Origin: Palleronia aestuarii
Lineage (GTDB): Bacteria; Pseudomonadota; Alphaproteobacteria; Rhodobacterales; Rhodobacteraceae
Assembly: GCF_003253995.1 (NCBI RefSeq)
Contig: NZ_QKZL01000012.1
Span: 1 to 64,000 of the forward strand
Length of the DNA stretch: 64,000 nucleotides
Direction of reading: 5' to 3'
Below the pieces are notes generated by a model. The model was not told the DNA's origin. It was given only the letters and a program-made list of their open reading frames with translations, and did no database searches. Shown here piece by piece: positions 1,208 through 31,594 of this stretch. The translations under genes and the position numbers were made by a program. Numbering within the stretch: position 1 is the first letter of the stretch; the number at the start of each line of letters is the position of its first letter.

Positions 1208-1256
1208 AACGGCCTTGCTGTCGGTGATGGCATGGAGCTTGGTGTTCATACCGCCG

Positions 1257-1301
1257 TCCTCGGTGAAACGATCCGCTGGATCGTTTCCTGATCCTCGAAC
1301 T
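1257..1301 (-). repeat. Palindromic insertion, family A copy 3 (45 bp)
   Basis: Read on the minus strand this 45-bp block contains GAGGATCAGG, then perfect 10-bp arms GAAACGATCC/GGATCGTTTC around AGC, then ACCGAGGA. It aligns end to end without gaps with the blocks at 5083-5127 and 5446-5490. It interrupts a transposase between the codons for RLIRR and GGMNTK. Confidence 0.6.
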
Positions 1302-1372
1302 CCGCCGGATCAGCCTGCCACGCCCCCCTTTTTCAATCGTAGCTTGGAGGCCGTGCAATGTACTTTGGGATA

Positions 1373-1845: not shown

Positions 1846-3792
1846 ATGATTAATTCCCTGTCTGACGCTCTCGAAGAGCGTGGCTATACCACGTTGACCC
1901 CGGTTCAGGAGGCCGTCACCGCGCCGGGTCTGGAAGGCGCCGATCTGCTGGTCTCCGCGCAGACCGGTTCCGGCAAGACCGTGGGGTTCGGCCTTGCGAT
2001 CGGCTCCACGCTCCTGGGCGAGGACAACCTTTTCGGACCCGCCGCGTCGCCCCTGGCGCTCGTGGTCGCTCCGACGCGGGAACTGGCGTTTCAGGTCATG
2101 CGCGAGCTTGGATGGCTTTACGCGAAAGCCGGTGGACGGGTCGTCTCCTGCGTGGGCGGCATGGACATGCGCGACGAACGCCGGGCGCTCGAACGGGGCG
2201 CGCATATCGTCGTCGGCACGCCCGGGCGGCTGCGGGACCATATCCAGCGCGGCTCGCTCGACATGGGATCGCTGCGCGCCGTCGTCCTCGACGAGGCCGA
2301 CGAGATGCTCGATCTGGGCTTCCGCGAGGATCTCGAATTCATGCTCGGGGAGGCACCGACCGGGCGGCGCACGCTGTTGTTCTCGGCCACGGTCCCACCG
2401 ATGATCGCCACCTTGGCGCAGCATTATCAGCGCGATGCGATCCGGGTCGACACGAAGTCCGGTGGCTCCCAGCATGCCGACATCGCCTACCAGGCCCTGA
2501 ACGTCGCGCCGCAGGATGTCGAGAACGCGGTCATCAACGTCCTGCGCTACCACGAAGCGCCGAATGCCATCGTCTTCGCCAATACCCGTGCGACGGTGAA
2601 CCGACTGACGGCGCGCTTCGCCAATCGTGGATTCCAGGTCGTGTCCCTGTCGGGAGAGCTGAGTCAGACCGAGCGCAGCCACGCCTTGCAGGCGATGCGC
2701 GACGGGCGGGCGCGGGTCTGCGTCGCGACCGACGTGGCCGCCCGCGGCATCGACCTGCCGAACCTGGACCTGGTCATTCACGCGGAGCTGCCGTCGAACG
2801 CCGAGGGTCTTCTGCACCGCTCGGGCCGGACGGGGCGCGCGGGGCGGAAGGGGATCTCGGCCCTGATCGTGCCGTCCCGGGCGACCAAGCGCGCCGAACG
2901 CCTTCTGAAGACCGCCCGTGTCAACGCGGAATGGATCGCCGCCCCCACCGCCGAGGAGATCCGGGCCCGAGACGAAGAGCGGCTGCTCTCCGACCCGACC
3001 TGGGCGGAGGAGATCTCGGACAGCGAGGCGGCCTTCGCCGAGCGCCTTCTCGCGAGCCGGGACCCCCGCGCCATCGCGGCGGCCTATCTGCGCCTCTACC
3101 GGACGCAGCATTCGGCCCCTGAAGAACTGAGCCCCGCAGGCGCACGCCCGACCCCGAAGGAACGGACCCCGTTCGGGGATAGCGCTTGGGTCGCCCTGTC
3201 GGTCGGCCGCAAGCAGGGCGCGGAGCCGCGCTGGCTGCTGCCGCTTCTCTGCCGCACCGGCGGTCTCGACCGGGACGCCGTCGGCGCGATCCGGATGCAG
3301 GAGGACGAGACGAGCGTGGAAATCTCCGCCGCAGCCCTGCCCGCCTTCCTGGAGGGTCTGGGGCCCGATGGCGTCATCGAGAAAGGGATCGCTGTTCGGC
3401 GGATCGACGGACCGCATGGATCGGCCGCGGCCACTTCCCCCCGAGAAACGGCCGAGGAACGCCCACGCGACCGCAAGGCGCCGGCGCCGAGTGCCGGAGA
3501 CAAGCCCAATCCGAAGATCGCCATGGATGTCGATCGCTCCTCGGCAACGGCAAAACCGCAAAAGCCCCCGCGCCGTGCCGATGCGGCATCCAAGCCGCCC
3601 CGCGACGCAAGACCGACGAAGCCGGCAAAGTTTGCCGCGAAGAGCGGAAGGAGCGTCAAAGCCGGGAAGGCCGGAGACGCATCCAACACGTCGAAGCGAT
3701 TCAGCCCGTCGAGCAAGCCAGACCGTGCTAAGACGAGGGGCAGCGGTCCCAAACGACCCTCCCCTGCTAGTGGCAAACGCGGAAGCCGATAG
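1846..3792 (+). CDS. DEAD-box RNA helicase with DbpA-type RNA-binding domain and basic tail
   Basis: An ATP-dependent RNA helicase, cytoplasmic, probably acting on structured RNA such as ribosome precursors or cold-stabilised mRNA. The start is the ATG at 1846 (MINSLSDALEERGY); earlier in-frame codons code for sequence without family resemblance. In order: Q motif (TPVQ, about residue 18), Walker A AQTGSGKT (38-45), PTRELA, DEADEM (about 150), SAT (about 184), IVFANTRAT (about 245) and HRSGRTGRAGR (about 325). A DbpA-type RNA-binding domain follows (about 445-505, WVALSVGRKQGAEPRWLLPLL). The last 130 residues are a Lys/Arg/Pro/Ala-rich disordered tail. At 648 residues it has the size of DeaD/CsdA relatives. 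It is the only intact gene in the IS-rich left end. The opposite-strand frame here is a codon-bias shadow. Confidence 0.9.
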   Translation: MINSLSDALEERGYTTLTPVQEAVTAPGLEGADLLVSAQTGSGKTVGFGLAIGSTLLGEDNLFGPAASPLALVVAPTRELAFQVMRELGWLYAKAGGRVVSCVGGMDMRDERRALERGAHIVVGTPGRLRDHIQRGSLDMGSLRAVVLDEADEMLDLGFREDLEFMLGEAPTGRRTLLFSATVPPMIATLAQHYQRDAIRVDTKSGGSQHADIAYQALNVAPQDVENAVINVLRYHEAPNAIVFANTRATVNRLTARFANRGFQVVSLSGELSQTERSHALQAMRDGRARVCVATDVAARGIDLPNLDLVIHAELPSNAEGLLHRSGRTGRAGRKGISALIVPSRATKRAERLLKTARVNAEWIAAPTAEEIRARDEERLLSDPTWAEEISDSEAAFAERLLASRDPRAIAAAYLRLYRTQHSAPEELSPAGARPTPKERTPFGDSAWVALSVGRKQGAEPRWLLPLLCRTGGLDRDAVGAIRMQEDETSVEISAAALPAFLEGLGPDGVIEKGIAVRRIDGPHGSAAATSPRETAEERPRDRKAPAPSAGDKPNPKIAMDVDRSSATAKPQKPPRRADAASKPPRDARPTKPAKFAAKSGRSVKAGKAGDASNTSKRFSPSSKPDRAKTRGSGPKRPSPASGKRGSR

Positions 3793-4449
3793 GGTTCGCT
3801 CGGCGCTACTGGCGCCAGCGTACTGCCAATTGTTGGAATATCCGTGCCCGCGTGGTGGCAACTACTTCTACCCGCATTCGAGCGTTTACGGGCTCGATCG
3901 GCAGGGATACAGGACCCGGGCAGGAAAAGTCCGAACGTCGAGTGGAATTGCCCCCCGAACGGCGACAATTATGGGAGCAGGGTACGACTTGAAGATCCGA
4001 CGAGCAGCTTTGGATCGGAAAGTCCCCTTCCGAGGAATAGAGAATACCCACGGAACTTTCAGGGGAAAGGACGGCTGCTGGCTACCGCGGGCGGGATCCG
4101 GTCGATCTACTTCTTCCCCGACCGGACAGCGGAGCAGTCGCGGATCTAGCCGAGGCCGTCGAAGGCGACTTGGCGGAGCTCGCTCAGTACCTCGTCGAGA
4201 TCAATAGCCGGAAATCCGCCAACCGGAACGCCAGCGCGGCGAAAGAGATTAAGGGAGTCGCTTACTCAGAGCTCCGCCCCATAACTCACGCCGGGGTGAT
4301 CCGCGGCGCTCGGGCGCTGATGTAAGCTATGATCTTAGATCGCCAGTTCTTCGGTCGTCAGCTGCCCAGATCGGCTTTCCACCTCGCCGGCATCCCCGGC
4401 TCGCGTGCGTCAGCCATCGTTAATCGCGCGCCCCGATCTTGCTGAAGCG
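3793..4449. other. 657 bases without a recognisable gene
   Basis: Short open frames exist but none has a convincing start or family motif. One stretch ending at the TAA near 4325 reads DLAEAVEGDLAELAQYLVEI and may be the relic of a small protein. Its neighbours in other frames break up within 30 codons, so I treat this as decayed DNA between the helicase and the next gene fragment. Confidence 0.5.
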
Positions 4450-4546
4450 TCAGCGAGCCTCGCCCACCTGTAGTATCCGCAGAAAGGCCGGCACGATCAG
4501 AACGAGGAGCAGGATCCGCGCGAAATGGTGGATCGCAACGTAGGCG
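4450..4546 (-). pseudogene. C-terminal tail of an AbrB-like membrane protein, cut by an IS element
   Basis: The minus-strand frame ends at 4450 and codes for AYVAIHHFARILLLVLIVPA followed by FLRILQVGEAR. The HHFAR...P..FR pattern in a hydrophobic helix resembles the final segment of AbrB-type (duplicated-fold) putative transporters. The readable part stops exactly where the IS903-like end begins at 4547, so the first several hundred codons are gone. Assignment rests on about 31 residues and is tentative. Confidence 0.35.
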
Positions 4547-4705
4547 GGCTCTGTTGCGCGGAACGCCTGAAGGCCGCGTTTCTCCTCTTTGTTGCCTATG
4601 TCAGCCGACGGGTTGCGTGACGGGGATGCCGAGGGCGGTGAAGCGGTTCGGGATGGCAATGCGGATTTGAAGCTCGGCGGTCTGTCGGTCGAAGGCGAGG
4701 CATCG

Positions 4706-4742
4706 AGCCGCCATCGGTCCGAGGCCGATGCCGAACGGCCAT
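4706..4742 (+). repeat. Palindromic insertion, family C copy 1 (about 31-37 bp)
   Basis: The block contains CATCGG-TCCGAGG-CCGATG, a perfect 6-bp hairpin, inside GCCGCC...CCGAACGGC. Over about 30 bases it is almost identical to the reverse complement of 5311-5350. Both sit next to the sequence GCATCGA. It interrupts the transposase between LLGQKLMA and AFDRQ and changes the frame. Confidence 0.55.
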
Positions 4743-4964
4743 GAGCTTCTGACCGAGCAGCTTCATGCAGTTCATTTTCGTCTCGGCGAAACTTCGGCGA
4801 TGGTATCCGCTCCAGCGCCGCCAGATAGTCCGGCCGAGGCGTATCATGGCACGCAGCGCCTCGTTCCTGCTTGTCGCTCCGGGGCTGTCTTTCTTCAACG
4901 GCCTTGCATTGCGCCGGGGCGGCACGACCGCGTCCGCGCCCCGGGGCGCGATGGCATCGCGGCA

Positions 4965-5007
4965 GGTGAGCTGGCGCGGCGCCACCGGTTCAAGCCCGCT
5001 GGCGAAC
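4965..5007 (+). repeat. Palindromic insertion, family B copy 2 (about 37-43 bp)
   Basis: The block reads GTGAGCTGGCGC...GCCACCGGTTC...CTGGCGAAC. It resembles the minus-strand reading of 1373-1415 (GTGAGCAGG...GCGTTC...CTGCGAA). It lies between the transposase motifs TADGAYDT and CRDAIAPRG, where about six bases are expected, and shifts the frame. It is the most degenerate member: only short internal arms (TGGC/GCCA) remain. Confidence 0.4.
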
Positions 5008-5082
5008 GGTGTCGTAGGCACCGTCGGCGGTAACGGATGCGATTGGTTCGTCCACAGGGACTTGGCCAAGCAGGTCGGGCAA

Positions 5083-5127
5083 TGAGGAGGAACAGGGATC
5101 GATCCAGTGGATCGATCCCCCGACGAA
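5083..5127 (+). repeat. Palindromic insertion, family A copy 1 (45 bp)
   Basis: TGAGGAGGAACA is followed by perfect 12-bp arms GGGATCGATCCA/TGGATCGATCCC around a single G, then CCGACGAA. It adds exactly 15 in-frame codons (FVGGSIHWIDPCSSS on the minus strand) between VGDAP and LPDLLGQVP of the transposase. Compared with 5446-5490 the flanks are conserved while both stem arms have changed together. Confidence 0.65.
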
Positions 5128-5151
5128 TGGCGCATCGCCGACGCCGCTGCC

Positions 5152-5192
5152 GTCCACTGGCTCTCTCGGACCAGTGGCATTCGCCAGTGAAC
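5152..5192 (-). repeat. Palindromic insertion, family B copy 3 (about 36-41 bp)
   Basis: Arms CCACTGG (5154-5160) and CCAGTGG (5171-5177) enclose ten bases. On the minus strand the block reads TTCACTGGCGAATGCCACTG onward, resembling 4965-5007. It adds about 12 in-frame codons between RAVE and GSGVGDAP of the transposase. Confidence 0.45.
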
Positions 5193-5310
5193 TCTCAACT
5201 GCACGGATCTCGAGCGTGCTCTCATCGACGGCGAGGTGGACCTTGCACCAGACCCGCCTGCGCGCTCCACCATGCTTTCGGGCATGCCATTCGCCCTCGC
5301 CGCGGACTTT

Positions 5311-5350
5311 GACGCCATTCGGCATCGTCCTCGGACCGATGGCGGTCGAT
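5311..5350 (-). repeat. Palindromic insertion, family C copy 2 (about 33-40 bp)
   Basis: Outer arms CGCCAT (5313-5318) and ATGGCG (5339-5344) enclose a core with CGATG/CATCG arms. The minus-strand reading nearly matches 4706-4742. It adds about 11 in-frame codons (AIGPRTMPNGV) between the transposase blocks LLVDN and GEGEW. Confidence 0.55.
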
Positions 5351-5445
5351 GCCTCATTGTCTACGAGCAGGTGCAAAGGGTCGCCGCTACCACGGTCAGG
5401 CAACTGCACGGCCTAGGTCTTATGCCGTCGGCAGAGCGTCGAGAC

Positions 5446-5490
5446 TGAGGAGGATCAGCAAGCCTTCCAGTGGAAGGATCGCCCGACGAA
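5446..5490 (+). repeat. Palindromic insertion, family A copy 2 (45 bp)
   Basis: TGAGGAGGATCAG is followed by arms CCTTCCA/TGGAAGG around one G, then CCGACGAA. It is 45 bp like 5083-5127 and identical to it in the outer parts. In transposase sense it inserts FVGRSFHWKAC, a stop and SSS between WPVP and STLCRR. Confidence 0.65.
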
Positions 5491-5826
5491 GGGCACCGGC
5501 CAGTCGAGGTCTGCCAGCTTCGGAAGGCTCGCGACGAAGCCCGTCGTCTGACGAAACGGCAGGTCGAAAAGGACCTCAATCGTCAGGCAAGCCTGAATCG
5601 CGGCGTCGCCGTAGACCGGTTGGCCGCCACGCTTGCCCGATGGCACCGCGTGCCAAGGCGTCGAAGGGTCGAACCAGACGGTCAACGACCCACGCTCGCG
5701 CAGCGAGGCGTTTTAGGCGGACCAGTTCAGGGTGCGGTAGCGGGTCGGGACGGGCTAAGACATGCCGCCCAGCTATGCTGCTGGGCTCGCAATGTGAATC
5801 CCAGGCAGGCTTGGTACAACAAGGCC

Positions 5827-14461: not shown

Positions 14462-15417
14462 ACGAGGACGTCGATCTCCTGCGGCGGCGTGCCCGTCGCG
14501 ATAGCGTTCAAGTTGCGCATGATGCGGGTGATCGAGGTGCTGAAGCTCGTCGCGGAGACAGCGCCGATATGGGGCGTCAGGATCACCCGGTCGAGACCAA
14601 TGAGGGGATTGTCCGGCCGGATCGGCTCCTCTGCAAATACATCGATCGCGGCACCGGCAAGATGGCCGGACCGGATTGCCTCCGCGAGGTCGGCCTCCAC
14701 GAGGACACCGCCGCGCGCCACGTTGACGAGCAGCGCGCCTGGCTTCATCGCGTCGAGCGCGGCTCGGTCGATGAGGTTCCGCGTGCTGTCGTTCAGCTCG
14801 CAATTCAGCGTCACCACGTCCGCTTCGGAAAGGAGAACATCGAGCGGAGCATAGCGCACGCCGAGCGCGGCCGCCTCCGCCTCGGGGATGGGGGTGCGCT
14901 TGGTGTAGAGGACGTCGCAGCCGAACCCGACGAGGAGCCGCGCGAGGGCGGCGCCGATATATCCCAGCCCCACGATCCCCACGGTGCGCCCGGAGAGCGT
15001 CATCGAGCTCGGCGCGAGTTCGCCCTTCGCCCAAGCGCCTGCCGCGATGCCCGCATGACCCCGCACGAGGTTGCGCCCGAGCGCGAGGATCAATCCGAGC
15101 GTCGTCTCCGCCACGGCGACGGCGTTGGAACCGGTCGTCCGCAGGACCCGGACGCCGGAGGCACGCGCGGCGTCGATGTCGATGTTGTCGTACCCCACCC
15201 CCCATTTGTGGACCGCCCGAAGGCCCGGGACGGCCATCATCCGGGCGTCGACCGGCGCATCGCCGGTGATCGCGAATTCGGCTTCGGAGAGGGCTTCGAG
15301 CTGATCCTCGGACGCGCGGGACGTCGCAGTATGGAGCGTCCACCCGTCAGGCAGGTAGGGCCGGATACGGTCGAGCCGTTCGGGTGCGGCCGGGTCGAGA
15401 AGGACGATGCGAGCCAC
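14458..15417 (-). CDS. D-2-hydroxyacid dehydrogenase (NAD-dependent, phosphoglycerate dehydrogenase-like)
   Basis: A 319-residue D-isomer-specific 2-hydroxyacid dehydrogenase, interconverting a D-2-hydroxy acid and the 2-oxo acid with NAD(P). Visible are KWGVGYDNIDID, the dinucleotide-binding GIVGLGYIGAAL (about 151-162), NCELNDSTRNLI, the active-site VNVARGGVLVE (Arg), a Glu in DVFAEEP and the catalytic His in LTPHIGA. The GTG at 15417 is chosen because a GAGG lies ten bases upstream; the open frame continues further back without family similarity. It converges on the LysR gene. Together with the RraA-like protein it hints that a hydroxy or oxo acid is an intermediate of this locus. Confidence 0.85.
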   Translation of the reverse strand: MARIVLLDPAAPERLDRIRPYLPDGWTLHTATSRASEDQLEALSEAEFAITGDAPVDARMMAVPGLRAVHKWGVGYDNIDIDAARASGVRVLRTTGSNAVAVAETTLGLILALGRNLVRGHAGIAAGAWAKGELAPSSMTLSGRTVGIVGLGYIGAALARLLVGFGCDVLYTKRTPIPEAEAAALGVRYAPLDVLLSEADVVTLNCELNDSTRNLIDRAALDAMKPGALLVNVARGGVLVEADLAEAIRSGHLAGAAIDVFAEEPIRPDNPLIGLDRVILTPHIGAVSATSFSTSITRIMRNLNAIATGTPPQEIDVLV

Positions 15418-27409: not shown

Positions 27410-29761
27410 TCAGCCGGCTCGCGCAGCGATACGCGTATGAGTGTCGGCGGCATCCGTGCCCGAGTTCGGATCGACAGACAGCGCCTTCGAGAGCACCTCG
27501 ATCAGCTTCGCGCGGCTCACCGGTTTGGCCAGGAACCCATCCATGCCGGCCTCGAGGCACCGCTTCTGATCCTCTTCGTAGGCATTGGCCGACAGGCCGA
27601 TGATCACGCACCGCCCCTGACCCCGTTCGCGCAGGCGGATTTCGCGGGTCGCATCGAGGCCGTTCATCCGCGGCATGGAGATATCCATCAAGATCGCGTC
27701 GGGCAGGTTTTCCTCGGCGCTCGCGACCGCCTCGATCCCGTCCTCGGCCTGCCGGATCCGGGCATTCACGCTCGCGAGATACCGCTCGGCCAGGAACCGG
27801 TTCACCTTGTTGTCGTCGACCACGAGGATATCGAAGCCCGAAAGATCGGGAAGCGGCTCTGGCCCGGTGGACCCGATAAGCGCGCGGGCCGCGACGGCGC
27901 GGGGGAACGGCAGGACGAGGGAGAATGTCGAGCCTTCTCCGACCACCGACAGGACCCGGATGTCTCCCCCCATCTGTTGCGACAGCATCCGGCTGATCGA
28001 GAGGCCCAGCCCGGTGCCGCCGAAGCGCCGCGTCGTCTCCGCATTCTCCTGGGTGAACGGCTCGAAGATGGCCGCGAGGCGGTCGCGGGAGATGCCCACG
28101 CCGGTATCCTCGACATCGATCCGGCACTGACCGTCCGTCCAGGACAGCCGCAGGGAAACGGAGCCCGCATCGGTGAACTTCACGGCATTTCCGAGGATGT
28201 TGGTCAGGACCTGGCGAAACCGCCCGGCATCCCCCACGACCTGCCCGTCCGGGCAACCGTCGAGCTCGAAATCGAGGCCGATCTCCTTCGCCCGGGCAAG
28301 GGGCTTCAGGAGATCGACGACGGATCGGACGGTCCCCGCGAGGTCGAACGGCTCGTTGTTCAGCGTCACCTTGCCCTCTTCGAGGCGGGTGAAATCGAGC
28401 AGCATGTTGACCAGCGAGAGAAGCCCGTCGCTCGACTGCGCCATCGTGTCGACATAGCCGCGCTGCCCCTCGCCGAGTTCGGTGTCGCGCAAAAGATCGA
28501 TCGTGCCCATGATGCCGTGCAGCGGCGTCCGAAGCTCGTGGCTGACCGAGGCCAGGAACAGGCTCTTGGCACGCGTACCCTCCTCGGCCGCCACCTTCGC
28601 CTTGCGCAGATCCGCCTCGCGCGCCCTGATGATCTCCTCGCTCTTCAGGCGTTCGCGCTGATCGCGGAACGCGAACACGGTCTGGTTCTTCCGTCCGACC
28701 TTCACCTCGCCTCTGAGTACCCGGACCGGAACGGGCGTTCCGCACGCCCGGGCGAGTTCCATGTCGTATTCCTCGCGCTCCGTCATCTCGAAGGGGGCGT
28801 CGATGGGGATGATCTCGGTGACCGGCCGTCCGATCACGTCCTCGGCCGCGACGCCCGTCAGCCTCGTGAAGCTGTCGTTGACGATCGAGACGATCTCGCC
28901 CTCGCAGACGACGAGGCCTTCGAGCGCGAGGTTTGACAGCTCGCGCAGCCGCGTCCGGTCCCGACGCAGCTGTGCCTGCGCCTGCAGGCTGAACCTCAGG
29001 CCGAAGAAGGCCAGCACGACGAGGGCGGAACAGACACCGGCGACGATCGGCGCGATCACCTCCGCCGCGACGGCGAAGTCCGGCAGGCCGATCGACGGAT
29101 CGTAGGACAGCGTCATCGCCGTCATCCCGCCGACATGGAGCACCGCGATGGCCACGAAGAGCAAGGGCGGGGCCAGACGCCGCACGGCGCGCCGCCGGTC
29201 CACTGCGACGACCATCGCGGCACCGAAGATCAGGAGGCTTGTTCCGATGGAGCCCGCGACGAGGGGCAGATCCCAGGACATCGTTCCGGTGACCCGGTAG
29301 CCGTACTGGCCGAGATAATGGAGAACCGTGATGGAAAGCCCCAGAAGAAGGCCCGAGGCGAACCGGCGCCATCGATCCTGACGTCCGATCATGCGGCTCA
29401 TGCTGAAGCCGATGCCGGCGATCACCGCGAGGAGCGAGAGCGCCGTCAGCGGCAGGTCGAAGGCCGCCGGCATACCGGGCCGATAGGCGAGAACGGCAAC
29501 CATGTGCGTCGCCCATGCCGTGCAACCGGCCGCGACGATGCTGACGCTGGCCCAGTTGCGCCTCGCGGAACCGTCCGACCGGCCGGCATGGCCCGAGAGC
29601 GCGGAGGCCGCGTATATCCCGACAATGCAGATGAGGCCCGCCGCGATCAGCAGCTTCCGGTCATGACCTTGAGCCAGACATGTGATGACAGCTTCCACGC
29701 GCGCCTCGTCCGTTCGATCCGACTGCGGACGAGGCTCCGGGATATCTCCCGCAAACTCCAC
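27410..29761 (-). CDS. Hybrid sensor histidine kinase: MHYT-type membrane sensor, PAS, kinase, receiver
   Basis: A 783-residue inner-membrane hybrid kinase. The N-terminal 260 residues contain about seven helices with degenerate MHYT repeats (ATHMVAVLAY, VLHYLGQYGY, VLHVGGMTAM), a module proposed to sense O2, CO or NO through bound metal. A PAS domain follows (about 280-380, GEIVSIVNDSFTRLTG). The HisKA motif is ASVSHELRTPLHGIMG (about 408-423). Kinase boxes are NILGNAVKFTD, DVEDTGVGIS and RRFGGTGLGLSIS. A short linker leads to a receiver domain with VVDDNKVN, ILMDISMPRMNG (phospho-Asp, about 700) and GFLAKP. No partner regulator or phosphotransfer protein is adjacent. Confidence 0.88.
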   Translation of the reverse strand: MEFAGDIPEPRPQSDRTDEARVEAVITCLAQGHDRKLLIAAGLICIVGIYAASALSGHAGRSDGSARRNWASVSIVAAGCTAWATHMVAVLAYRPGMPAAFDLPLTALSLLAVIAGIGFSMSRMIGRQDRWRRFASGLLLGLSITVLHYLGQYGYRVTGTMSWDLPLVAGSIGTSLLIFGAAMVVAVDRRRAVRRLAPPLLFVAIAVLHVGGMTAMTLSYDPSIGLPDFAVAAEVIAPIVAGVCSALVVLAFFGLRFSLQAQAQLRRDRTRLRELSNLALEGLVVCEGEIVSIVNDSFTRLTGVAAEDVIGRPVTEIIPIDAPFEMTEREEYDMELARACGTPVPVRVLRGEVKVGRKNQTVFAFRDQRERLKSEEIIRAREADLRKAKVAAEEGTRAKSLFLASVSHELRTPLHGIMGTIDLLRDTELGEGQRGYVDTMAQSSDGLLSLVNMLLDFTRLEEGKVTLNNEPFDLAGTVRSVVDLLKPLARAKEIGLDFELDGCPDGQVVGDAGRFRQVLTNILGNAVKFTDAGSVSLRLSWTDGQCRIDVEDTGVGISRDRLAAIFEPFTQENAETTRRFGGTGLGLSISRMLSQQMGGDIRVLSVVGEGSTFSLVLPFPRAVAARALIGSTGPEPLPDLSGFDILVVDDNKVNRFLAERYLASVNARIRQAEDGIEAVASAEENLPDAILMDISMPRMNGLDATREIRLRERGQGRCVIIGLSANAYEEDQKRCLEAGMDGFLAKPVSRAKLIEVLSKALSVDPNSGTDAADTHTRIAARAG

Positions 29762-30013: not shown

Positions 30014-31594
30014 TCAGAAACCTACGGCGCAGCCATCCTTGCGGTGGTCCGATCCGGCGACATAGCCCGCCTCGCCCCGCATGACGAGCTGCGCACCGCC
30101 GAAGCCGAAGGCGTTGTCGGGCGCTTCGCGGGTGATCTCGTGGCCGCGCGCGGCAAGGCCCTCGACGATCTCGGTGGGCATCCCCCATTCGACCGCGACC
30201 TTTCGACAAGCGACGACGCGCCAGCGCGGCGCATCGCTCGCGGCCTGCGGGTTCTGGCCGTGGAGTGCCGTGCGCACCACCATCTGGACATGGCCCTGCG
30301 CCTGCATCGGCCCGCCCATCACGCCGAAACTCATCTCCGGCCGCCCGTCGCGCATCACGAAACCCGGAATGATCGTGTGGAACGGCCGCTTGGAGGGTCC
30401 GACGACGTTCGGATGATCGGGCGCGAGGTCGAAGCCCGCGCCGCGGTTCTGCAGGTGGATCCCCGTCCGCGGCACCACGACGCCGGATCCGAACCCGGCA
30501 TAGTTCGACTGGATGAAGGAGACCATGCGCCCCTCCGCATCGGCGGCCGAAAGATAGACCGTGCCTCCGTCCCGCGGCGCGCCCGCCCCCGGATCGCCCG
30601 CCTCCGCGCCGATGAGCCGGGCGCGTTCCGCGAGATAGGCGTCGTCGAGCAGCGCGCCGGGTCCCACCTCCATCGCCGCGGGGTCGGCCACGTATCGTTC
30701 GGCATCGGCCAGGGCGAGCTTCACCGCCTCGATCTGCAGATGCATCGCCTCCACGCTGTCGGGCGCATGATCCGCGATATCCGTCCCCCGCAGGAGACCG
30801 AGGGCGATCAAGGCGGCGATCCCCTGCCCGTTCGGCGGGATCTCGTGGAGATCGACCCCGTGGAACGCCGTCGAGATCGTGCCGCACCAGTCGCAGCGAT
30901 GCGCCGCGAGGTCTTCCCGGGTCAGCGCCGCTCCGTGCCGCGCCGCATCCTCCGCGATCGCCTCGGCGAGCTCACCCTCGTAGAAGGCCAGTCCCTTCGT
31001 GCTCGCGATGGCCTCGAGCGTCCGGGCGAGGTCGGGATTGACGAAACGCTCGCCCGCGCGCGGCGCACGTCCCTCCGGCAGGAAATGCGCGGCGAAGCCC
31101 GGCTGCCCGGACAGCGTCCGGCCCCCCGCCTGCCAGAGCGCGGCGATCGTCGGCGAAACGGCGAACCCGTTTTGCGCATAGTTCAGGGCGGGCGCAAAGA
31201 GCGCTTCGAAGGGCAACGCCCCGAACCGCTCGGAAAGCGCGACCCAGGCGGAGACGGCGCCGGGTACGGTGACGCTTTCCCACCCGCGCTGCGGCATCTC
31301 CGTGGCGCCGGCGAAGCGCTCCGGCGTCCAGGATGCGGGCGAGCGGCCCGACGCGTTCAGCCCGTGAAGCTCCGCGCCGTCCCAGACGATCGCGAAGGCG
31401 TCGGAGCCGATGCCGTTGCCGGTGGGCTCCACCACGCTCAGCGTGATCGCCGCCGCGAGTGCCGCGTCGATCGCGTTGCCCCCCGACGCGAGCATCGAGA
31501 GCCCGGCCTGCGCGGCCAGCGGTTGCGACGTGGCCACGACGTTCGCCGCGAGAAGCGGCACCCGCCGCGACGGATAGGAAACCCCGAAATCCAT
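30014..31594 (-). CDS. Gamma-glutamyltransferase family protein (YwrD-like)
   Basis: A 526-residue Ntn-hydrolase precursor of the gamma-glutamyltranspeptidase family. Motifs: QPLAAQAGLSMLASGGNAIDAALAA-type N-terminus (about 25-50) and EPTGNGIGSDAFAIVWDG. The self-processing and nucleophile site is at GGTVYLSAADAEG (about 356), where the Thr begins the small subunit; classical GGTs read GGTTH here, while the YwrD group has the TVYL or TIYL form. Further on are SNYAGFGSGVVVP, LQNRGAGF and GVMGGPMQAQGHVQ. No signal peptide is seen, as in YwrD. The start is ATG 31594; the open frame upstream is the out-of-frame reading of mmsA. It could hydrolyse gamma-glutamyl compounds or glutathione. Confidence 0.87.
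   Translation of the reverse strand: MDFGVSYPSRRVPLLAANVVATSQPLAAQAGLSMLASGGNAIDAALAAAITLSVVEPTGNGIGSDAFAIVWDGAELHGLNASGRSPASWTPERFAGATEMPQRGWESVTVPGAVSAWVALSERFGALPFEALFAPALNYAQNGFAVSPTIAALWQAGGRTLSGQPGFAAHFLPEGRAPRAGERFVNPDLARTLEAIASTKGLAFYEGELAEAIAEDAARHGAALTREDLAAHRCDWCGTISTAFHGVDLHEIPPNGQGIAALIALGLLRGTDIADHAPDSVEAMHLQIEAVKLALADAERYVADPAAMEVGPGALLDDAYLAERARLIGAEAGDPGAGAPRDGGTVYLSAADAEGRMVSFIQSNYAGFGSGVVVPRTGIHLQNRGAGFDLAPDHPNVVGPSKRPFHTIIPGFVMRDGRPEMSFGVMGGPMQAQGHVQMVVRTALHGQNPQAASDAPRWRVVACRKVAVEWGMPTEIVEGLAARGHEITREAPDNAFGFGGAQLVMRGEAGYVAGSDHRKDGCAVGF

Follow-up and report, generated by a model that had tools for sequence, protein, structure and literature searches.

Two related families of tiny, putatively mobile hairpin elements in a dead IS5-family insertion sequence of Palleronia aestuarii and in other alphaproteobacterial genomes

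The window, by which we mean the whole 64-kb stretch of Palleronia aestuarii DNA analysed here, carries an IS5-family (IS903-like) insertion sequence (IS) that contains six short hairpin-forming blocks, E1 to E6 (Table 1). This copy is dead: its ancestral transposase frame is interrupted by in-frame stops. The genome assembly (4.54 Mb, 77 contigs) holds two close copies of it, on contigs C10 (95% identity) and C6 (93%), the latter with an ancestral frame free of stops, as well as many more distant matches, several of them truncated at contig ends. Positions 1 to 306 of the window hold another IS903-like fragment, truncated by the contig start and about 79% identical to the main IS, and many contigs of this genome terminate in IS903-like copies. 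In the C6 copy (L003), GTCTC-like units within the transposase gene have undergone a short tandem expansion that the other aligned copies lack.

Table 1. Coordinates of the host insertion sequence and of the hairpin elements in the window; net gains are relative to the Limimaricola variabilis copy.
Feature	Position	Strand	Length (nt)	Net gain (nt)	Evidence
IS5-family (IS903-like) IS, dead copy	4547-5826	- (transposase strand)			Genome copies, relative alignment, in-frame stops
E1, A-type hairpin element	4695-4736	+	42	37	64.6 bits, A model; relative alignment
E2, A-type hairpin element	4966-5007	+	42	37	54.2 bits, A model; relative alignment
E3, B-type hairpin element	5082-5128	+	47	42	84.4 bits, B model; relative alignment
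E4, divergent A-type (family C of the preliminary description)	about 5152-5190	-		36	11.9 bits, A model; boundaries approximate
E5, A-type element	5317-5357	-	41	36	68.1 bits, A model; relative alignment
E6, B-type hairpin element	5445-5491	+	47	42	78.7 bits, B model; relative alignment
B-like hairpin in what is left of a different, multi-copy IS (about 1216-1528)	1250-1302	-			38.4 bits, B model

A preliminary description of this locus, made from the sequence of the window, held that the six blocks are insertions in a dead IS and proposed alignment with relatives as a check. In that alignment all six were missing from the empty copies used as reference, namely those of a Limimaricola variabilis plasmid, of Ruegeria pomeroyi (ISSpo9) and of Sulfitobacter dubius, and we therefore rejected the reading of the blocks as normal transposase sequence. 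Relatives without the blocks exist, and the blocks are present at other loci and in other genomes, the opposite of the two outcomes that the preliminary description had named as contrary to it. The net gains add up to 230 nt, and the values of about 45, 36 and 31 to 37 bp given earlier proved only approximate.

All six insertions are common to the window, C10 and C6 copies, and the differences among these three copies (70 nonsynonymous and 42 synonymous, summed over three non-independent pairs) are near neutral. Other copies share only some of the elements: E3 and E5 are present in the IS copy of contig C20, E2 and E3 in those of contigs C35 and C61, and in a Paracoccus yeei plasmid copy two insertions of these kinds occupy different sites. 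The E2 site also holds an A-type copy in C51, and the E5 site, which lies at the LID-ST-GIK motif of the transposase, is occupied likewise in C5 and at three further loci (L117, L120 and L170). In the C10 copy (L002), E3 has lost one hairpin arm and is 13 nt shorter, and reduced hairpins resembling this form were seen on C24 and C44. Such patchy sharing among IS copies suggests separate insertion events of different ages.

Next, covariance models R1 (A-type) and R2 (B-type) were built from the blocks and further copies, including some located in an IS3-type element (L015, L024). A-type elements are 41 to 42 nt long (E1, E2 and E5, with E4 divergent) and are flanked by R on the left and G on the right; inside these bases they read RY, GA, a stem arm of 7 to 9 bp, a short spacer, GCCAYYGGTYCGAG as the loop, a spacer, the second stem arm, GA and RY. 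The 47-nt B-type elements (E3 and E6) have similar ends around a core of GGATCAG-stem-CCRGTGG-stem-CCC. The terminal RY steps of A-type elements are mostly reverse complementary, with GT/AC in 19, GC/GC in 15, AT/AT in 7, AC/GT in 1 and other combinations in 4 of 46 unique contexts, a count that omitted contexts with neither base paired. Reduced and divergent forms occur as well, including a paired GTCGCC..GGCGAC subtype. The preliminary description had recognised three families, A, B and C, where we find two: its family C (E4) has an A core, though it matches the A model weakly. The block at 4965 to 5007, which had been called degenerate, corresponds to E2 and is not degenerate: it has a 7-bp stem that includes wobbles and a score of 54.2 bits.

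The A-type stem covaries. In an alignment of 110 copies (107 distinct), all nine tested pairs had changed on both sides, pairing holds in 94.6% of 959 cells, and the covariation score was 0.535, compared with 0.177 for shuffled and at most 0.080 for slid alignments; this alignment (A6) was fitted to model R1, in which the base pairs are already included, and the counts therefore lean towards structure, although the slid controls still score far lower. The terminal steps form standard or wobble pairs in 69 (outer) and 67 (inner) of 70 contexts. Among 490 stem cells from 70 contexts there were 19 G.T against 3 A.C mispairs, and given this asymmetry the strand bearing GCCAYYGGTYCGAG is probably the one that folds. 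RNA folding z-scores were favourable for a consensus-like A sequence (-4.2) and the C61 copy of E2 (-2.9), and less so for E5 (-1.5) and the C6 form of E3 (-2.2).

None of the elements in the window matched Rfam at the gathering score, and membership in a known Rfam family was rejected. The two window matches above that score, both on the minus strand and neither on an element, were sul1 RNA (RF03058, 50672-50730) and terC RNA (RF03067, 52690-52747). In E-value mode, 10 loci with elements gave a single, sub-threshold match. The model of the Brucella small RNA CI153 (RF02604) includes a hairpin resembling the B-type core and matches the minus strand over E3 (L001 2010-2118, equivalent to window 5049-5157); nevertheless, at 28.2 bits against a gathering score of 137, the B-type is not a member by that test.

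Within the window, E-values ranged from 2.2e-16 to 1.5e-12 for three A-type copies and were 3.5e-24 for E3 and 2.2e-22 for E6; these values are rough, as the window copies themselves helped to build the models. Together with recurrence in other genomes, which is independent support, they indicate that the elements are not a product of chance. Each block had been said to recur elsewhere in the window, which overstates the case: beyond this IS there is one clear further copy, the B-like hairpin of Table 1, and the remaining candidates are weaker, namely 30694-30725 with the A model (25.8 bits) and 29219-29270 with the B model (20.1 bits). Copies of the multi-copy IS whose remnant contains this B-like hairpin bear it immediately upstream of an ATG, and 11 further such cases occur in the genome. 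Up to an E-value of 5, the own genome gave 69 matches to R1 and 50 to R2, lists whose weak tails are not counted as real and of which the R2 list consists partly of the complementary strand of palindromes already listed.

To place the elements in a wider context, we searched 394 genomes of the family, nearly all chosen as one per genus. A-type elements were found in 175 of them (E-value 1e-4, with at most 15 candidates scored per genome), part of the matches being weaker subtypes (among those listed, the GTCGCC type in G018, G148, G300 and G346 and a GTCGTC form in G013). In a class-wide draw of 385 genomes at 1e-6, A-type elements occurred in five, that is, in three of the five listed family genomes (the own genome included) and in two of about 380 others; since the thresholds differ, the contrast between family and class is approximate. 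B-type elements were found in 11 of the 385 genomes at 1e-6, nine of them outside the family, and eight of ten loci examined are in register, with at least six showing the B architecture. Finally, the exact A consensus pattern recovered 33 stretches from a collection of 84,980 genomes. Thirty carry titles of genera, or of metagenome-assembled genomes (MAGs), of the order Rhodobacterales, and the other three are MAGs titled as Alphaproteobacteria, Hyphomonadaceae and WS1. This recurrence in other genes and other genomes upholds the earlier picture of a swarm of miniature palindromes whose insertions fall in coding DNA. The alternative offered with it, products of a repair process acting on this replicon, is unlikely because elements that are nearly identical recur across many genera of a single family.

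A Pfam scan of 43 fragments flanking A-type insertions (36 of 53 contexts plus seven others) identified a transposase- or integrase-type family above the cut-off in 24, among them DDE_Tnp_1, rve, Transposase_mut and DDE_Tnp_IS66; two of the 24 had HTH_21 only and one HTH_Tnp_1 only. Two fragments, both from one gene, matched phage terminase GpA, and 17 gave nothing clear (ten no family, seven weak or generic helix-turn-helix matches). One fragment (L127) also touches ABC_tran at its far end, and no housekeeping gene was identified among the 43. As the fragments were picked by length and codon bias, this is not an unbiased census. At 25 of the 33 exact-pattern loci the flanks resemble fragments of earlier loci, a figure in which several repeat the same loci and two have their match in an unlabelled fragment alone; IS labels were in part assigned by eye. 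Both orientations of the elements occur, with strands assigned by a heuristic, and an RNA-level function requiring one orientation was rejected on that ground.

Some copies look intergenic. In G328 (L240, L251 and L262), at least three A-type copies with GA ends belong to a longer repeat that is dispersed, share similar flanking sequence and apparently lie outside any IS. The GTCGCC..GGCGAC copies of G018, G148, G300 and G346 look intergenic too; copies of this subtype (L241, L242, L243 and L244) are scattered in large contigs, several beside a AATATCCCGGGG-like motif, and by eye they look intergenic and terminator-like.

We then compared filled sites with their natural empty counterparts, which were sought for A-type elements by a script with fixed thresholds and an allowed gap range of -3 to 25; the replacement at E3 and E6 was read by eye from the relative alignment. 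Among 103 distinct A-type contexts, 50 had an empty counterpart within the set of loci retrieved and 53 did not. The target bases absent from the filled site numbered 5 in 28 cases, 4 in 18, 6 in two, and 11 and 1 in one case each. Thus, 4 or 5 target bases were replaced, with no duplication, at 46 of the 50 sites. Where identity was at least 85% on both sides, the loss was 4 nt in 10, 5 nt in 10 and 6 nt in one, so that 20 of 21 fall at 4 to 5 nt. The empty sites also revealed a target preference that precedes insertion: of the 50, 47 have R as the left base and 40 have G as the right base. An IS3 copy (L136) is a clear example: relative to a plasmid copy from Alloyangia pacifica (92% identity across the matched parts), it has five insertions, four A-type and one of 40 nt of another kind, and one site in this type of IS3 holds two different elements in two genomes (L130 and L136). 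Many copies owe their spread to IS amplification or to inheritance and do not count as independent events. To our knowledge, exact replacement of 4 to 5 bases fits no known transposition mechanism.

These sites bear on whether the elements are ordinary miniature inverted-repeat transposable elements (MITEs) that descend from a DDE insertion sequence and are mobilised by it. Inverted repeats at the termini characterise MITEs, with direct repeats flanking them while they are young (PMC10969869). The present elements are likewise non-autonomous, short, dispersed, palindromic and able to form stem-loops, and their ends are short imperfect inverted repeats (RYGAG / RYTCG). However, an exact direct repeat of 4 to 9 nt at the element ends was found in only two of the 103 contexts, which together with the loss of target bases led us to reject target-site duplication, and the arms covary rather than hold a fixed terminal sequence. 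Nor are the complementary RY dinucleotides a target duplication, because GT/AC and AC/GT are reverse complements and not direct repeats. A MITE origin therefore appears improbable.

A second possibility, to which we give about the same low weight, is that the elements are protein-coding palindromes in the sense of the Rickettsia palindromic elements (RPEs), selected or tolerated as in-frame peptides. In support, E5 is in frame in the transposases of L117 (whose protein is also that of L152, from Profundibacterium mesophilum) and of L170 (Limimaricola cinnabarinus). These differ by 48 synonymous and 28 nonsynonymous changes, with no stop, over 253 compared codons, a comparison limited to that part because the L170 locus stops short of the gene end; the neutral expectation, computed on another copy, is about 2.7 nonsynonymous per synonymous change. 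The pattern is as expected if constraint persisted after the insertion, provided that the insertion predates their split. In-frame copies also occur in a phage terminase whose two domains are both complete (L154, Oceanicella actignis) and in TrbE/VirB4-like ATPases of two further families. For such ATPases, L265 and L272, which come from two alphaproteobacterial families, have a B-type element in frame at what appears to be one shared position, with stems that differ and are each complementary. Against this possibility, the net length modulo 3 at the 50 sites splits 19/18/13, with 19 divisible by 3, near the third expected without frame selection, and both orientations occur. Therefore, frame is not selected overall and we rejected frame selection as a general property; the frame keeping noted earlier holds for E3, E4, E5 and E6 in the window IS, with E1 and E2 breaking the frame, but is not general.

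RPEs themselves are about 150 bp long, lie in unrelated metabolic genes and are nearly half fused in frame with genes (PMC10969869). The likeness extends to small palindromes of several families within protein-coding genes of Alphaproteobacteria, some of them in frame. The present elements differ in their size of 41 to 47 nt and in having been identified mostly in transposase genes. They share the location inside protein-coding genes, apart from the copies that look intergenic, and in-frame insertion occurs in individual cases without being general. By this comparison of features, the elements may be called RPE-like in habit, in part; the resemblance in style drawn by the preliminary description is supported, and membership is not implied.

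Small single-strand hairpins with a conserved foot, dispersed in genomes, and with some copies that look intergenic, also recall REP-type palindromes and their mobilisation by a Y1 (RAYT/IS200-like) transposase. We regard this reading as very unlikely and largely refuted already. High-copy genomes, defined as those with at least six matches in the 394-genome survey and including genomes whose listed matches are weaker subtypes, were compared with zero-copy genomes. The own genome and 22 of the 24 high-copy genomes lacked Y1_Tnp (PF01797), which was present in the other two and in two of 17 zero-copy genomes; moreover, insertion replaces 4 to 5 bases and most identified sites lie within genes. 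Similarly, RVT_1 occurred in six of the 24 high-copy genomes (the own genome included) and in seven of the 17 zero-copy genomes and did not track the elements. Neither distribution follows the copy-number class or explains mobility, and we rejected as movers both a Y1/RAYT transposase and a reverse transcriptase, the latter including a group II intron or RT-dependent retroelement. By the features tested, the elements are neither RAYT-type REPs nor MITEs.

Some IS that carry an element are present in identical copies. In G353, 1.44-kb IS256-type copies, 100% identical, lie at four contig ends, and in them the element interrupts a Transposase_mut gene that is complete apart from falling into two frames (profile positions 7-315 and 310-377 of 379); no close copy without the element was found in this assembly, which is 94% complete. 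In G386, two copies of a 2.1-kb IS21-type stretch are 100% identical and have the element in the second gene. Such copies were either mobilised in trans, or their genes are still functional. The byp elements of yeast mitochondria are short hairpin insertions in coding sequence. That the present elements are skipped in a comparable way at the RNA or translation level, leaving host genes functional, is the least credible reading: the G353 copies and the stop-free frame of the C6 copy would agree with it, but both orientations occur, there is no sign of translational bypass, the G353 copies sit at contig ends and could be fewer in reality and have moved in trans, and the three own IS copies differ by near-neutral substitutions.

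Overall, we favour, with a probability of about 0.62, the reading that the blocks are two related families of tiny non-autonomous mobile hairpins moved in trans by a putative enzyme. The dispersal of the elements, the A-type structure, the replacement of 4 to 5 target bases without duplication and the target preference are established; the insertion events are known from sequence comparison alone, and a search with the Y1_Tnp and RVT_1 profiles found no mobilising enzyme. In the proposed mechanism, each gene-less element of 41 to 47 nt would fold on one strand, with a covarying RY/RY step closing the hairpin next to a conserved tandem G-A mismatch. A trans-acting enzyme would recognise the folded strand, as RNA or single-stranded DNA, and join it at a staggered break whose 4- to 5-nt overhang is lost; the sites used have a purine to the left and, in most cases, G to the right. 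Elements would accumulate in IS genes because these are dispensable, multi-copy and themselves mobile, and IS movement would spread resident hairpins further. The window IS may have gathered its six elements before or during its death.

There is a fair chance that the insertion mechanism is new. A bolder and rather doubtful version is a new mobile class, in which a gene-less hairpin of about 41 nt exchanges 4 to 5 target bases through a dedicated novel enzyme and is aimed at transposon genes. If so, the elements could parasitise transposons, or they could serve the host by disabling transposons through hairpin insertion. What is new here is the combination of a covarying hairpin with tandem G-A mismatches, the 4- to 5-base target replacement and the frequent location in transposase genes; no earlier description of the elements appeared in titles and abstract openings of a literature lying mostly outside subscription journals. 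Mobile elements so small would show how little mobility requires. Given their presence in a large share of the sampled family genomes and their frequent location in transposon genes, they may shape the decay and evolution of IS, and the in-frame copies in otherwise open genes would be a free-living counterpart to the Rickettsia palindromes. With many natural pairs of empty and filled sites at hand, the mechanism is directly testable.

On contig C24, an IS110-family element (L107, about 3163-5211) has an A-like palindrome just beyond each end (15107-15150 and 17431-17475 of C24), and this palindrome could be a target of that IS.
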